A stretch of 64,000 bases of DNA from Agathobaculum sp. Marseille-P7918 (GTDB lineage Bacteria > Bacillota > Clostridia > Oscillospirales > Butyricicoccaceae), in the NCBI RefSeq assembly GCF_900625105.1, contig NZ_UYYD01000001.1:496001-560000 (forward strand), written 5' to 3'. This document shows positions 25,981 to 34,701 of the stretch, piece by piece; position 1 is the first letter of the stretch, and each line of letters begins with the position of its first letter. The notes beneath the pieces were generated by a model that was not told where the DNA came from, ran no database searches, and was given only the letters and a program-made list of their open reading frames with translations. Position numbers and translations under genes: made by a program.

Positions 25981-27267
25981 TTACAGACGGCGGATGATGT
26001 CATCCGTGCAGCGCTGCGTCTCCGCCTTGACGCGCTCGATGTCGATCGTGGTATATGCGCCGTCGCGGTACAGCACCTCGCCATCCACCATGGTCAGGCG
26101 CACATCCGCGCCCTGCGCGGCGTAAACCACGTTGCAGGCCGCATCGGTCATGGGCGTAAACTGCGGCGTGTCCGTATTGATCACGCACAGATCGGCGCGG
26201 CAGCCGACACGCAGCAGACCGCAATCCGTTCTGCCCTGCGACAGCGCGCCCGCGCGCGTTGCCGCGTGCAGCGCCTCAGCCGGTGTAATGAGCGTCGAGT
26301 CGCGGTAATATCCTTTATATACCACGCCGAACAGATAGAGGTCCTGCAAAATGTTCAGATTGTTGTTGGACGCCGCGCCGTCCGTGCCGAGCGCAACGTT
26401 GATGCCCATATCGAGCAGCTTGGGGATATTGGCATAGCCGGACGCGAGCTTGAGATTGCTCGCCGGGCAGCAGGCCACGGTCACACCGTGCGAGCGGAGG
26501 ATCTCGAAATCCTCCCCTTCCAGCCAGACACAGTGCGCCGCCGTCGTCGGCACGTCAAACACGCCGTGCGCCTGCATATACGCCGCGGGCGTCATGCCGT
26601 GGCGCTGCTTGCATTCCTCGTGCTCGGCCTGCGTTTCGGACAGATGGATGTGCATGCGCGCGCCGCTCGCCTTGGCGTGCGCGGCGACCGCCTCGACCAC
26701 CTTGGGCGTCGAAGTGTACTCGCCGTGGATGCACAGATCGCCGATCAGGCGGCCGTCCCCTGCCCCGTTCCACTCGCCCAGCAGACGCAGGTTGTCCTGA
26801 TAGGCCGCGGTCTGTGCATAATCGCTGTCGTCGAACACGGTCAGTCCGCGGCTGAGGTTGCACTTGATTTTGCTTTCCAGAATGGCCTTGGTCATGCCGT
26901 CAAGGAAGAAGTACATATCGGAAAACGACACCGTGCCGCTTGCCAGCATTTCCGCAATGGCAAGTTGGGTCGCGTAATACACCGACTCGTCGCTCAGCTG
27001 ATCCTCAAACGGGAATACGCGCTCGTTCAGCCAGCGCTGCAGCGGCAGATTTTCCGCATAGCCGCGCAGCAGCGTCATCGGCGCATGGCTGTGCACATTA
27101 TAAAAGCCCGGCAGCAGCAGACGATGGCGGCCGTCGTAGCGCTCGCCGTAGTCCTCCTGCGGTTCGGTCTCGCCTATGTACGCAATGCGGCCGTCCTTGA
27201 CGCCGACATACTGTCCGCGCCGGAGCGCAAAGTTTTCATCCAACAAATCGATATGGCAGAATAGCAT
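25981..27267 (-). CDS. Amidohydrolase, MTA/SAH (or adenosine) deaminase type
   Basis: 428 residues of the metal-dependent amidohydrolase superfamily. Metal motifs: LPGFYNVHSHAPMTLLRGY, IHGEYTS, HIHLSETQAEHEEC, TTAAHCVWL and LGTDGAASNNNLN, closely matching 5-methylthioadenosine/S-adenosylhomocysteine deaminases (MtaD). Start at 27267 follows AAAGGAG. Its start lies within the last 32 bases of the truncated sigG frame, so its transcription probably now depends on what reads through sigG; no separate promoter is obvious in the 70 bases before it. The deamination step pairs with the purine nucleoside phosphorylase that follows. Confidence 0.88.
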   Translation of the reverse strand: MLFCHIDLLDENFALRRGQYVGVKDGRIAYIGETEPQEDYGERYDGRHRLLLPGFYNVHSHAPMTLLRGYAENLPLQRWLNERVFPFEDQLSDESVYYATQLAIAEMLASGTVSFSDMYFFLDGMTKAILESKIKCNLSRGLTVFDDSDYAQTAAYQDNLRLLGEWNGAGDGRLIGDLCIHGEYTSTPKVVEAVAAHAKASGARMHIHLSETQAEHEECKQRHGMTPAAYMQAHGVFDVPTTAAHCVWLEGEDFEILRSHGVTVACCPASNLKLASGYANIPKLLDMGINVALGTDGAASNNNLNILQDLYLFGVVYKGYYRDSTLITPAEALHAATRAGALSQGRTDCGLLRVGCRADLCVINTDTPQFTPMTDAACNVVYAAQGADVRLTMVDGEVLYRDGAYTTIDIERVKAETQRCTDDIIRRL

Positions 27268-27640
27268 TGGTTTCTCCTTTGTCTTTCTCAACGGGGTTTT
27301 GTACAGTCTCTTTGTTTCTGTGAGGTGAGGAGGGATTTCCCCAAATACCGTTCATCGGCACGGCATAGGTGGAAAAACGCACGCCGAGCTCGGTGTTGAA
27401 ATGGTCGATGGATTTCATCAGCCCGATGCAGCCCACCTGAAACAGGTCATCCGGCGACTCGCCGCGCCCCTGAAACCGCTGGATTACCGACAGCACCAGC
27501 CGCAGGTTGCCGCGGATCAGTTCGTCCCGCGCCTGCTTGTCGCCCTTGCCCGCGCGCACCAGCAATTCATCCGTCTTTGCCGCCGACAGGGTCGGCAGCC
27601 CCGATGTATTCACCCCGCAAATCTCTACTTTGGTTTGCAT
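27236..27640 (-). pseudogene. sigG: Truncated forespore sigma factor sigma-G (N-terminal third only)
   Basis: Residues 1-96 are textbook sigma-G: MQTKVEICGVNTSGLPTLSA, then GKGDKQARDELIRGNLRLVL, DDLFQVGCIGLMKSIDHFNT and RFSTYAVPM. Right after that Met the similarity stops: NGIWGNPSSPHRNKETVQ and a stop follow, giving 134 residues against about 257 in intact proteins. Region 2.4 (-10 recognition) and all of regions 3 and 4 (-35 recognition) are missing, so this product cannot be a working sigma factor. In the +1 frame a short GEI occurs where IIGEIRRYLRD is expected, but nothing beyond it matches. The gene keeps a sigma-F-type promoter. Its place after spoIIGA-sigE is the normal one. Confidence 0.85.
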
Positions 27641-27683
27641 GGAAAAGTCCCTCCCGTCCTGCGCACCCGATGTGCGTCTATCA

Positions 27684-27712
27684 GGATTTTCCCCTGTGGG
27701 CGGGCGGAATAT
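27684..27712 (-). promoter_or_regulatory. Sigma-F/sigma-G-type promoter of sigG
   Basis: Minus strand: GTATA (27712-27708), 15-base spacer, GGGGAAAAT (27692-27684), an excellent fit to the forespore consensus (GYATA, N15, GGNNANAHT). Intact although the gene it serves is truncated. Confidence 0.75.
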
Positions 27713-27783
27713 ACCGACGAAATATTTTGCCGAGCGCCATGCTTCGACACACTTTTTCCCGTTTATGTGCTTTATGGCGTGCC

Positions 27784-28275
27784 TTACAGCAAATGATAAT
27801 GTGGGATGATATCCTCAAACGAGCCATCCTTCATGCGGAAACCGCCGGGGATGACGCCCAGCTGCTCAAAGCCCAGTTTTTTGTACAGCCGCAGCGCGGG
27901 CACATTGGTCCTGACCACAGCGTTGAACTGCAAAATGCCAAACCCCAGTTCCTTGGCTTTGTCCATGCAGTGCAGCACGAGTTTTTCCCCGATATGCTGT
28001 CCGCGCAGGCTGCCTTTGACCGCATAGCTGGCGTTGCAGATATGGCCGCAGCGGCCGACGTTGTTCGGATGCAGGATGTACAGGCCGACGATCTCGCCGT
28101 TTTGTGCATCATACGCGATGCCCGTAAACGACTGCGACGCGAAAAACGCATGGCCGCTCTGCGCATCGAGCAATTCGGTCTGCGGGAAGGCCACGCCGTC
28201 CTCCACAACCTCGTTCCACACCGCAGCGGCCTGCTGCGCGTCGCTCTGTTCGTATTCTCTGATTTCCACCTGCAT
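27784..28275 (-). CDS. GNAT-family N-acetyltransferase
   Basis: 163 residues. Acetyl-CoA binding block near residue 85-95 reads VKGSLRGQHIGEKL (the R-x-x-G-x-G/A-type loop), followed by FNAVVRTNVPALRLYKKLGF, the usual GNAT motif B. Resembles L-amino-acid or phosphinothricin acetyltransferase-type members (YEQSDAQQAAAVWNE start). The substrate is unknown. It sits between sigE and sigG, which are normally adjacent in Clostridia, so it was probably inserted there. Start at 28275 follows GGGGAG. Confidence 0.85.
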   Translation of the reverse strand: MQVEIREYEQSDAQQAAAVWNEVVEDGVAFPQTELLDAQSGHAFFASQSFTGIAYDAQNGEIVGLYILHPNNVGRCGHICNASYAVKGSLRGQHIGEKLVLHCMDKAKELGFGILQFNAVVRTNVPALRLYKKLGFEQLGVIPGGFRMKDGSFEDIIPHYHLL

Positions 28276-28347
28276 GACACACACGCTCCCCGTCATTTTT
28301 TGCGGTTTTATTGTACCGCATTTTATCCCGCCATGCAAGCGCGCCGC

Positions 28348-29049
28348 CTATGCAAAGTTTTTCAGGATGTCCTTGCGCATGCGCGCAATGATCCGCTTTT
28401 CCAGCCGCGAAATGTAGCTCTGCGAAATCCCCAGCAGCTCCGCGACCTCCTTTTGCGTCATACATTCGGGCAGCCCCAGCCCAAAGCGCAGCGAGATAAT
28501 CTGCTTTTCCCGCGCAGGCAGGCGATCGAGCGCGTGATGCACCAGCATACGGTCAACATCGTCCTCGATCGGGCGCATGACGCTGTCCGGCTCGGTGCCG
28601 AGGATGTCGCTGAGCAGCAGCTCGTTCCCGTCCCAGTCGGACGACAGCGGCTCGTCGAACGAGACTTCGGTGCGCCGCCCCGACAGCTTGCGCAGGTGCA
28701 TCAGGATCTCGTTTTCGATGCAGCGCGAAGCGTAGGTCGCGAGCTTGACATTTTTGTCGCTGCGGTAGGTGCCGACCGCCTTGATCAGCCCGATCGTGCC
28801 GATCGAGATCAGATCCTCCGTGCTGACCGCCGCGGATTCAAATTTGCGCGCGAGGAACACCACCAAACGCAGGTTGTGCTCGATCAGCTTGTTGCGCGCC
28901 TGCGCATCCCCCGCCTGACAGGCCTCGACCGCCGCCTGCTCCTCCTCGGGCGAGAGCGGCGGCGGCAGCACTTCGCTGCCGCCGATGTAGTAAACCGTCC
29001 GCCGGTTCCACCAACGTAAAAACGCCTGCAACATCCGTTTGAGTATCAT
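28348..29049 (-). CDS. sigE: Mother-cell sporulation sigma factor sigma-E (pro-sigma-E)
   Basis: 233 residues. Pro-sequence of about 20 residues ([19 protein letters not shown]) then the conserved processing and mature start [18 protein letters not shown]. Region 2: [43 protein letters not shown]; region 4: [17 protein letters not shown] and the helix-turn-helix [20 protein letters not shown]. The ATG at 29049 follows AAAGGAAG. The pro-sequence is around seven residues shorter than in B. subtilis. Its gene follows spoIIGA, whose product cleaves it. Confidence 0.96.
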
Positions 29050-29063
29050 ATGTATTCTTCCTT

Positions 29064-29903
29064 TCATACCCCGATCAGTCCGTCATACGCGCCCTGTCCG
29101 ATGCTGTCCGGCCCAATGGCGCACACACAGTCGAGCACGGTGCCGTCCGCGCGGCGCACGCTGTCTGGCCGAAAATACAGCAGCAGCCCGCTCTCCACGC
29201 CGACCGCGCGATACGGCAGCAGGCCGAACCGGCTTGCCGTTTCCGGCGGCAGCGCGGCAAGGCAGGCGGCAGCATCCTTCGTCCCGGCCCAGGCCTGCCG
29301 GATCTGCGCACCCAGCAAACTGTCCGCCGCCGTCCGCCCCAGCACCAGCGCCGGACGGCCGGACGCCGGTTCGGTCAGGCTGTTTCCCGTATCGTGCAGC
29401 AGGCGCACCTCGCGCTCGCGGCCGTCAAAGCGGATGATCAGCCGCTCCACCTCGCGGCGCAGCGGGCCGTGCAGCGCGTCGCCGCGCAGCAGCACGCCGC
29501 TGAGCGCATATCCGGCCGCGGCGGCCAGCAGCAGCACGCGGAACGGCACGGAAACATAATACCCCGCACCAAACAGCAGTTTTCGCCCGGTTGCCACGCC
29601 CAGTGCAGCGGCGAGTCCGGCAAAGGACGCCGCCACCACGAAATACAGCGCGCACACCCGCCCGAAGGCGGGCTTTCCGCCGAATGCCGCGGCGCACAGG
29701 CCGACGCCCGCGAGCAGCCGTACCGGCAGCGCCGACAAAGCCGGCAGCACCGCGGCCAGCACCGCATACCCGCCGCCCAGCGCGGACGCGGCCAGCCACC
29801 GGATGCGGCCGGCGCGCACGCCGCCCAAGGCCGCCGCCGCGAGCAGCGTCACGCCATCCATCAGCGCGTTGACCGCGAACAGCACATCCAGATAAACAAC
29901 CAT
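29064..29903 (-). CDS. spoIIGA: Sigma-E processing aspartic peptidase SpoIIGA
   Basis: Cleaves the pro-sequence from sigma-E in the septal membrane after a forespore signal (SpoIIR). 279 residues: five N-terminal membrane helices ([20 protein letters not shown] onward), then a soluble retropepsin-like domain with the catalytic Asp in [12 protein letters not shown]. Composition is unusually Ala/Gly/Arg-rich, giving strong ORFs on other frames, but the family blocks are clear. CGGAGGTG precedes the ATG. First gene of the spoIIGA-sigE pair. Confidence 0.94.
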
Positions 29904-30024: not shown

Positions 30025-31389
30025 TCAGTTTTTCAGGCTCTGGATGGGAGCCGGGATGCGGCCGCCGCGATGGATGAACTTCGCGGGAGAGCCGGTCGCG
30101 ATCGGCATGATGGGCGCCGCGCCCAGCAGGCCGCCGAATTCGACCATATCGCCCACCGTTTTGCCGATGGCGGGAATGACGCGCACCGCCGTCGTCTTGG
30201 AGTTGACCACACCGATGGCGATCTCGTCTGCGATCAGGCCAGAAATAACCTCAGCGGTGGTGTCTCCCGGGACAGCAACCATGTCGATGCCGACCGAGCA
30301 GACTGCGGTCATCGCTTCGAGCTTTTCGAGCGTCAGCGCGCCCGAAGCCGCCGCCGCGATCATGCCCTCGTCCTCAGACACCGGGATGAACGCGCCCGAC
30401 AGGCCGCCGACCGACGAGGACGCCATGACGCCGCCCTTCTTGACCGCGTCGTTGAGCATGGCGAGGATCGCGGTCGTGCCGCAGCCGCCGCAGACCTCCA
30501 GACCGACTTCCTCTAGGATACGCGCGACCGAGTCGCCGATCGCCGGGGTCGGCGCAAGCGACAGGTCCACGATGCCGAACGGCACGCCCAGACGCTCGCT
30601 CGCGATCGCGCCGACCAGCTGGCCCATGCGCGTAATCTTGAACGCGGTCTTTTTGATGACCTCAGCCACTTCGTTGATCGAGCAGTCGCCCGCGCGGCGG
30701 ATGGCCGACTGGACTACGCCCGGGCCGGAAACGCCGACGTTGATGACGGTCTCCGGCTCGCCGATGCCGTGGAACGCGCCCGCCATGAACGGGTTGTCGT
30801 CCACCGCGTTGGCAAACACCACAAGCTTGGAGCAGCCCATCGAGTCGTTGTCCTTGGTCAGCTCGGCCGTCTGCTTGATGATGCGGCCCATCAGGCCGAT
30901 GGCGTCCAGGTTGACGCCCGCCTTGGTGGACGCAACATTGACCGACGAGCAGACCAGCTCGGTCTCGGCCAGCGCTTCGGGGATGGAGTTAATCAGGATT
31001 TCGTCGCCCTTGGCAAAGCCCTTCTGCACGAGGGCGGAAAAACCGCCGACGAAGTTGACGCCGGTCGCGGTCGCCGCGCGGTCGAGCGCCTTGGCCAGCG
31101 GCACATAGCTGTTCGCCGTTGTTACCGCGCCAATCATCGCGATCGGCGTGACCGAAATGCGCTTGTTGATGATCGGGATGCCCAGCTCACGCTCGATCTG
31201 TTCGCCGGTCGCAACCAGCTTTTCCGCGCGGCGGGTCACCTTGTCGTAAATCTTGTCCGCCAGCACGTTGATATCGTCGCTGGCCAGATCACGCAGCGAA
31301 ATGCCCATCGTGATCGTACGGATATCGAGGTGTTCCTCCTCGATCATCTTGATGGTTTCCAGAATGTCCTTGGTATTGATCATTGACAT
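30025..31389 (-). CDS. UPF0210/DUF711 family protein
   Basis: 454 residues, the usual family length. Related by fold to the radical/pyruvate formate-lyase-like DUF711 family; no reaction is established. Landmarks: [15 protein letters not shown], the Gly-rich [56 protein letters not shown] and [13 protein letters not shown]. The ATG at 31389 has GAGGTG six bases upstream, preferred to the in-frame GTG at 31398 that overlaps this site. Always paired with an ACT-domain gene, as here. Confidence 0.92.
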
Positions 31390-31399
31390 GGATGGCACC

Positions 31400-31669
31400 T
31401 CAAATCTTGTGCATCGCGTCGAAGATATCCTCGTGCATGGTGTGGATCTTCATGCCGAGTGCTTCGCCGTCCTGATCGAGCAGATCGGCAAGCTTGGTAA
31501 AGTCCACCGTGCACTTGTCGATGTTGACCAGCATGACCATGGCGAACATATCCTCCATGACGTTCTGGGAGATGTCAACGATGTTGACCTCGTGCTGATA
31601 GAGCGTGTCCGAGATCTTGGCGATGATGCCGGTGCGGTCCTTGCCGACCACCGTGATGACTGCGCGCAT
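31400..31669 (-). CDS. ACT-domain protein (UPF0237)
   Basis: 89 residues forming one ACT domain: [20 protein letters not shown] then [17 protein letters not shown] stand-alone ligand-binding module found next to UPF0210 genes throughout Firmicutes; its ligand is not known. Ten bases separate it from the UPF0210 start. Confidence 0.93.
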
Positions 31670-31720
31670 ACTTTTTCCTCCAGTTTATATGTTTATTTTT
31701 ATCGAACACAAAATAAGTTT

Positions 31721-32889
31721 TTACAGAAACATCGGCGCCGCAGACGCATCCGCCTGCTCCTGCCCTGCTTCCACGATGGTATTGATGATGCTGTTGGACA
31801 CCAGAAAGCCCTTTTCGGTCAGATACCAGCGAGTTCCCTGATGCGCGACCAGCCCGTTGCCCATCAGGCTGCGGAACGCCTCCTCATAAGGCGTCGAGTC
31901 GATGTTATAGCGCTTTTCGAGTTCGAGGAAATCCACGCCCTCCGCCGTGCGCAGGCGCACCATCAGGTATTCGCCCTGCCGCTGGAAGGTCGGCACCTCG
32001 TCCTCATCCCGCACGATATCCTCGCCGTTTATGTACGCCTTGATATCCCGTGCAAACTCAAACCGGCGGCCGTTCATAAAGGAATGTGCGCCCGGTCCGA
32101 GGCCGAGATACTCGGACAGATCCCAATATTTATAATTGTGCCGCGAGCGGAAGCCGGGCTTGGCAAAATTCGAGATCTCGTAATGCTCAAAGCCGTTTTT
32201 GCGCAGCAACTCGCACATGGCGAGATAGGTATCCGCCTGCGCGTCGTCGTCCGGCAGAACGGGGTTTTCGCGCCCCATCGGGGTCGCAGGCTCAAGCTTG
32301 AGCCCGTAGCACGACAGGTGTTTGGGGCCAAGCGCCAGACACTGCTCGACCGAGTCGAGGAATTTCTCCTGCGTCTGGCCGGGCAGGCCGTACATCAGGT
32401 CAAGGCTGATGTTGTCAAACCCCTTTTCGCGCGCCAAATCAACCGCATCTTTCGCCTGCTGGAACGTATGGATACGCCCGATGCGTTTCAGTTCGTCCTC
32501 CTGCGCGGACTGCACGCCGAAGGACAGACGGTTGACGCCGTGCTTTTTCATCGCGTCGAGCACCTTTTTATCCGTGCTCTCCGGGTTGCACTCGACCGTA
32601 ATCTCCGCGTCGTCCGCGAGCGGGAACTTGTTCCGCACCTCCTGCAAAATGCGGCCGAGGTACTTCGGCCCCAGACAGGTCGGCGTGCCGCCGCCGATGT
32701 ACACGGTGTCCACCGTGTAGCCGCTGCACGTCCTCCCGTATTCGCGGATATGCGTCAGCAGCGCCGAAACATAGCTTTTCATCAAATCCGCGTCGGTCAC
32801 CGAATAAAAGTCGCAATAGGCGCACTTTTTGACGCAAAACGGAATGTGCAGGTACAGCCCAAGCGGCCGGTTATTATAACTGAACTTAC

Positions 32890-32893
<4 letters not shown>
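31721..32893 (-). CDS. hemW: Radical SAM heme chaperone HemW
   Basis: 390 residues. The iron-sulfur cluster ligands are Cys20, Cys24 and Cys27 (CVKKCAYC), followed by VYIGGGTPT and the HemN-like blocks [33 protein letters not shown] and [10 protein letters not shown]. The HemN-specific extra N-terminal residues are absent, so this is HemW (formerly called oxygen-independent coproporphyrinogen oxidase-like). Its ATG overlaps the lepA stop by four bases, the common lepA-hemW operon. Confidence 0.95.

Positions 32894-34701
<1,808 letters not shown>

Follow-up and report, generated by a model that had tools for sequence, protein, structure and literature searches.

Among sporulation genes that are rebuilt by recombination, sigK is rejoined in the skin/sigK rearrangement by SpoIVCA in B. 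subtilis, and by CD1231 together with the recombination directionality factor (RDF) CD1234 in C. difficile, as given in the available excerpt of PMC5025042. Furthermore, the excerpts of three reports name SPbeta/spsM, gin/gerE, vfbin/spoVFB, vrin/spoVR and yin/yabG as interrupted genes, joining by a serine recombinase being shown for spsM and gerE, the latter with a 6.5-kDa RDF (PMC4191935, PMC5595907, PMC10747680), and a YabG-like gene is described as sigma-K-controlled in the excerpt of PMC3789822. In the portions of these sources at hand, such rearrangements are described for mother-cell genes, the changed genome being discarded (PMC4191935, PMC5025042, PMC5595907); restricting the rearrangement to the mother cell leaves the phage in place in the genome of the spore, and confinement to this cell, whose genome dies, is given as the reason why the elements survive (excerpt of PMC4191935). 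Sigma-G, according to the same excerpt, is the forespore factor. For the Listeria comK prophage, a regulated excision in cells that go on growing is described (excerpt of PMC5025042). The open-access literature, preprints excluded, yielded no report of a rearrangement in sigG or in a SASP gene, nor a paper on the sporulation of Agathobaculum as such.

Within the window, a stretch of 64,000 nucleotides from Agathobaculum sp. Marseille-P7918 (NZ_UYYD01000001.1, positions 496,001 to 560,000), sigG is represented by its first 96 codons only (Table 1), and the remainder of the gene lies on a different contig. We observe a split sigG with a dedicated recombination system that is under selection, and from its sequences we infer that recombination happens, when and in which cell, what a 62-aa protein does in it, and that it is reversed. 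With a probability of about 0.82, sigG would be rejoined by this recombinase during sporulation, in a skin-like manner, the gene being a forespore (germline) gene and the sites being distant.

The frame at 27236-27640 of the minus strand encodes 134 amino acids, of which residues 2-96 match SigG (PRK08215, E 5.4e-42, profile positions 3-97 of 258); beyond residue 96 no match to SigG models was found, and the top PDB match, the sigma factor chain 1l0o_C, stops at the same residue. This bears out the original prediction of a 96-residue sigma-G N-terminus in a frame ending at 134. It had also called the sequence after the cut unrelated, which is right as far as the SigG models match nothing there, but the DNA from 27355 to 27336 is a conserved recombination half-site; the residues added after codon 96 vary between the species with cut Agathobaculum loci. 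The N half possesses a ribosome-binding site (by eye), and its promoter, which from its consensus we take to be sigma-F-type, is preserved as had been stated; GTATA-N15-GGGGAAAAT recurs with small changes in the 22 aligned Agathobaculum sigG upstream regions. The amidohydrolase gene adjoins the N half in all 21 cut N loci of the genus.

Table 1. Features at and around the N-terminal half of sigG (positions in the window)
Feature	Position	Strand	Basis
sigG N-terminal half, codons 1-96, end ...STYAVPM	27353..27640	-	SigG profile, PDB match
38-residue tail and stop, species-variable, outside sigma-G	27236..27352	-	ORF listing, genus comparison
attL-like half-site: B arm TTTC-N12, core GCCG (27359-27356), P' arm N16-GAAA	27336..27375	-	site comparison
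sigG promoter, presumably sigma-F-type, GTATA-N15-GGGGAAAAT	27686..27714	-	sequence; conserved upstream in genus
amidohydrolase/deaminase frame, TTG start as listed, after half-site	25981..27291	-	ORF and domain match
GNAT acetyltransferase frame, between sigE and sigG N half	27784..28338	-	ORF and domain match
sigE, complete frame, upstream of sigG	28348..29067	-	ORF and profile match
spoIIGA, complete frame; match of 94 bits, below curated cut-off	29064..29903	-	ORF and profile match

The missing half, for which a search of the whole genome had been suggested, was recovered by a sigma-G profile search of the strain's own genome (G000; 2.83 Mb, 99% complete, 36 contigs) at G000:C15:151629-152117 (profile positions 92-254 of 254), the N half being on contig C18. 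Directly upstream of it lies an intact gene for a 458-aa large serine recombinase (L049:3230-4606), with the Pfam domains Resolvase (1.4e-38), Recombinase (2.4e-9) and Zn-ribbon (8.8e-12), a match to the phrog_95 integrase (E 1.1e-114) and PDB matches to the TP901-1 and A118 integrases. Aligned to the TP901-1 integrase (3bvp), it retains the RVST motif, the serine of which is catalytic. A 62-aa ORF (L049:3045-3233) with no match in Pfam or PHROG precedes the recombinase, the start of which overlaps the ORF stop; a small ORF in this overlapping position is present in 15/15 loci. The locus is flanked by a phosphate acetyltransferase gene (pta) on one side and by polysaccharide deacetylase and aminotransferase genes on the other, the latter read by eye as ilvE. 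A second full-length sigG, also looked for, was not found among the stronger, listed ones of the nine matches in this genome, the best other profile-spanning match being a sigma-F-like gene. Whereas a deletion had been favoured at first, the C half in the same genome, the adjoining recombinase and the matching half-sites speak instead for another of the options originally offered, a split gene joined like sigK.

The end of the N half reads TTTC-N12-GCCG-N16-GAAA (attL-like, B-P') and the start of the C half TTTC-N16-GCCG-N12-GAAA (attR-like, P-B'), with a CCCG core at the C half of G002 and G025. In large serine integrases, attB has short arms and attP long ones, the outer motif standing further out in P. 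Throughout the 14 genomes, 13 of Agathobaculum plus G025, for which the two sites were set side by side, TTTC/GAAA stand 12 nt from the core in the B arms and 16 nt in the P arms, and 20 of the 21 cut Agathobaculum N sites carry GAAA at 16, the remaining one (G021) having GAGA. Furthermore, the P arms are mutual inverted repeats (consensus ATGAACGTAC / GTACGTTCAT) with 11-15 of 20 matches versus about 6 in shuffles (each P <= 0.019); the B arms match weakly (7-8 of 16, P 0.06-0.15). Judged by this architecture, the broken ends of sigG form a reciprocal attL/attR-type pair, and exchange at the shared GCCG-ATGA gives an in-frame sigma-G (...VPM-IIGEIRR...). The rejoined attP pattern, which fits 10 of the 13 genomes checked and misses G002, G003 and G011, had no exact match in 25 genus genomes; a rejoined attP would not be expected in vegetative DNA.

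The split is a property of most of the genus. An N half was seen in 23 of 25 Agathobaculum genomes, and comparison of the junction in sister genomes, as had been recommended, puts the break behind codon 96 in 21 of these 23. The ordinary genes after the cut could be read as the trace of an assembly deletion or misassembly, one of the options raised at the outset; yet both the junction and the downstream neighbour are the same in 21 genomes, and because so many share the junction, the probability of such an artefact is practically nil. The recombinase, at 78-100% identity, is free of stops in 22/25 genomes; none was detected in G008 (99% complete), G020 (80%) and G016 (83%, with a cut N half). 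In all 18 Agathobaculum loci read, out of these 22 recombinase-bearing genomes, the C half lies directly behind the recombinase, and searches with the full SigG profile found no full-length sigG in any of the 15 recombinase-bearing genomes searched. G008 and G020, both lacking a detected recombinase, have a contiguous sigG. The split is hence not needed by every species, G020 being only 80% complete.

The contiguous sigG of G008, of G020 and of a Butyricicoccus contig occupies the place of the C half, next to pta in G008 and G020 and to the deacetylase/ilvE genes in G020 and Butyricicoccus; sigE and sigG remain adjacent in five of the contiguous loci compared from other families. In trees, the placement of G008 and G020 is weak, one tree being built with 24 of 31 intended rows (G020 among the seven left out) and one from pta at 16 loci. 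Among the best 80 of 585 named relatives, sigG was contiguous by pattern in 71 and contiguous with a variant motif in 5, split in 2 (both Agathobaculum), at a contig edge in 1, and not read in 1.

Strong purifying selection acts on the recombinase and on the two halves of sigG alike: median dN/dS (NG86; median dS 0.6-1.3) is 0.074 for the N half (21 sequences), 0.035 for the C half (15) and 0.093 for the recombinase (15), and 0.24 for the small ORF (15). Because these values are low, loss of sporulation, initially considered as well, is unlikely. That the locus is a dead remnant, with sigG decaying in a genus that no longer sporulates, would fit the absence of a complete sigG among the matches listed in the own genome and the silence on spores in the excerpts of the Agathobaculum species descriptions; set against the selection just described, the complete frames of sigE, spoIIGA and the sigF-like gene, the SASP matches in 24/25 genomes and the site architecture kept across the genus, we consider it highly improbable. 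Selection on two open frames would also be expected of a sigma factor made of two polypeptides, translated separately and then assembled, as is known from SigO-RsoA of B. subtilis. However, no ribosome-binding site is seen by eye ahead of the in-frame ATGs of the C half, in contrast to the N half; the recombinase and the non-coding arms would be left without a function; and relatives carry compact recombinase elements, so that the chance of such an assembly is extremely small.

In the model of rejoining that we favour, vegetative DNA would hold sigG as two halves, the N half beside sigE with an attL-like half-site and the C half with an attR-like one, directly behind the operon that encodes the recombinase and the 62-aa protein. 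In sporulating cells, this recombinase would join attL and attR at the core GCCG, the 62-aa protein probably serving as its directionality factor and the operon probably being under a forespore (sigma-F-type) promoter. With the frame of sigG thereby restored behind the gene's own sigma-F promoter, sigma-G would be switched on. With regard to the operon, the motif G[GA][TC]T[GA]-N15-GGnnAnAnT occurs upstream of the small ORF in 14/15 Agathobaculum loci, compared to 0.30 loci expected from mononucleotide shuffles, in a set of related loci and with an atypical -35 that was relaxed after the alignment had been viewed; its -10 and spacing resemble those of the sigG promoter, and a similar motif precedes the operon in 4/5 loci of f13g51. 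We regard this as no more than suggestive of a sigma-F-like promoter.

It is conceivable that sigG is instead rejoined stochastically in growing cells, as a phase variation of spore competence and not as part of the forespore programme. The halves can indeed be inverted (G011; G314), as in a classical invertible switch. Yet all 22 recombinase-bearing genomes of the genus show a cut half (N in 20; C in G009 and G010, without a visible N half) and none a joined gene, the sigma-F-like motif stands before the operon in two families, and sigG is useful only in the forespore, all of which makes this alternative unlikely.

How the two halves are oriented to each other would decide whether rejoining during sporulation inverts part of the chromosome or produces two circles. 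For instance, in G011, assembled as one contig, the halves lie 757 kb apart on opposite strands, so that joining would invert a segment; in G013 they are 112 kb apart on the same strand, so that two circles would result. In neither genome do they flank one directly oriented excisable element, which rules out excision of a single compact element as the sole geometry, although it is seen in relatives. A split into an origin-near and a terminus-near half, considered as a translocation check, was unsupported, as G011 and G013, with dnaA taken as origin, carry both sigG halves in that half of each arm which is nearer the terminus. Integration by attB x attP requires the integrase alone, and re-splitting after germination could be this ordinary reaction. 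As the genome with a rearranged sigG is inherited, such a reversal is an expected further step.

Compared to sigK and skin, the resemblance lies in a sporulation sigma factor gene cut in two at attL/attR-like sites, a large serine recombinase, and an attL x attR joining that would be in frame; furthermore, the 62-aa ORF is a candidate for the directionality factor that the C. difficile sigK system has. Among the proteins compared with it, the recombinase is nearest to A118/TP901-1-type integrases. In contrast to skin, the Agathobaculum halves are dispersed and do not flank one element, and while sigK acts in the terminal mother cell, sigG acts in the forespore, on the chromosome of the future spore. 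Systems of the spsM/gerE type likewise concern mother-cell genes in the excerpts seen, a pattern which sigG and the SASP gene described below break. That halves lying far apart would demand a large rearrangement of a germline cell counts against rejoining. The comK prophage offers a precedent for regulated excision in a non-terminal cell, and the integrase of Listeria phage U153 is 33% identical to our recombinase; comK, however, is a competence gene interrupted by a prophage, with neither a sigma factor nor dispersed halves.

The split-sigG system, as read from gene order and sites, extends beyond Agathobaculum, at least to the families f2 and f13, and in several geometries. Recombinases of the same kind (E <= 1e-90) occur in at least 28 of 394 genomes of the order, 10 Agathobaculum and 18 others, a lower bound because at most four candidates were scored per genome. 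The C half lies within about 1 kb behind the recombinase in 8 of these 18 (G079, G109, G163, G235, G314, G279, G404, G212), a cut N half adjoins it in G390 and G398, and in G025 2.7 kb separate the C half from the recombinase, which is on the opposite strand. In 4/5 genomes of f13g51, the N and C halves are directly oriented and about 6.4 kb apart, with the recombinase before C; in the fifth (G314) the N half is inverted, and a flip of about 3.7 kb would join sigG. The small ORF has a homologue upstream of the f13g51 recombinase (41% over 39 aa, E 1.6e-6, in a small comparison set). Direct compact elements are found in G079, G109, G163, G235, G398 (6.7 kb) and G212 (17 kb), that of G079 holding iron alcohol dehydrogenase and aldehyde ferredoxin oxidoreductase genes between the halves. 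The halves lie on different contigs in G025, in G404 and in those f16 genomes in which both pieces were matched. No sigG motif was found within about 1.4 kb of the recombinase homologue in seven of the 18 (six of family f16, and G322); two f16 N sites that were read carry the same N16-GAAA arm, and a connection between the f16 recombinase and sigG would be hypothetical. In G322 the N match contains stops, in G279 only a C half is present, and in G228 only an N-side match. In G390, a contiguous full sigG coexists with the cut N-half fragment beside the recombinase (L314, L315).

Other genes are interrupted in a comparable manner. Within the strain's own genome, an interruption of sigK at ...ISRSYVSR lies beside a convergent large serine recombinase (L003:1147-2583; L200, G000:C17 ~31,000-33,000), with no 3' piece located, a LysM/GH18 gene (YaaH/SleL-like) is truncated next to another convergent one (L242:1427-4015, G000:C34), and a third overlaps the start of a collagen-repeat (BclA-like) gene (L233:1883-4313, G000:C18). 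The interrupted sigK and LysM/GH18 genes lend support to the rejoining of sigG. The SASP gene, which like sigG belongs to the forespore and is intact in the own genome (L197), was one contiguous match in 14 of the 24 genomes with a match (two of them partial), was found as both pieces in 7, and as one piece only in 3. In G001, G004, G005, G006, G013 and G015 (L188-L196), the sole SASP gene found is split, its pieces being 4-23 kb apart with genes between them that look ordinary (by eye, loci listed). A second large serine recombinase of 557-558 aa, with a small ORF, precedes the 3' piece and ends 53-54 bases before its conserved start (six loci read).

Tentatively, and at somewhat less than even odds, the forespore programme may require a reversible surgery on germline DNA, in which a recombinase made after sigma-F rejoins sigG and the genes are re-split after germination. 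The same reading would have SASP restored by the second recombinase in several species, hundreds of kb of the spore's chromosome inverted or split, the cut serving as a lock that bars late forespore expression from every other cell, and possibly as a check on the entry of both distant loci into the forespore. As sigG is needed only in the cell that turns into the spore, a conserved split of this gene implies a heritable rearrangement or a step of reversal. It makes testable how a germline cell rearranges its chromosome and restores it, and whether cutting a gene can act as a developmental lock; moreover, a recombinase becomes available together with its defined sites and a candidate directionality factor. 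For annotation it is a hazard, as species with a split sigG can look sigG-negative and hence asporogenous.

Finally, sigG itself is cut again near codon 240 in G005, G006 and G007, and near 236 in the contiguous gene of G008 (L149:3350-12648 in G006, L150, L152, L151). In G006, the end piece lies 9.2 kb further along, within the frame of a 568-aa recombinase, which reads into it, and in G212 (family f2) the C half is cut again at ...GISLSEK, near the same codon (L268, L313). Large serine recombinase domain matches per genome numbered 17 in G000, 14 in G011 and 27 in G013.
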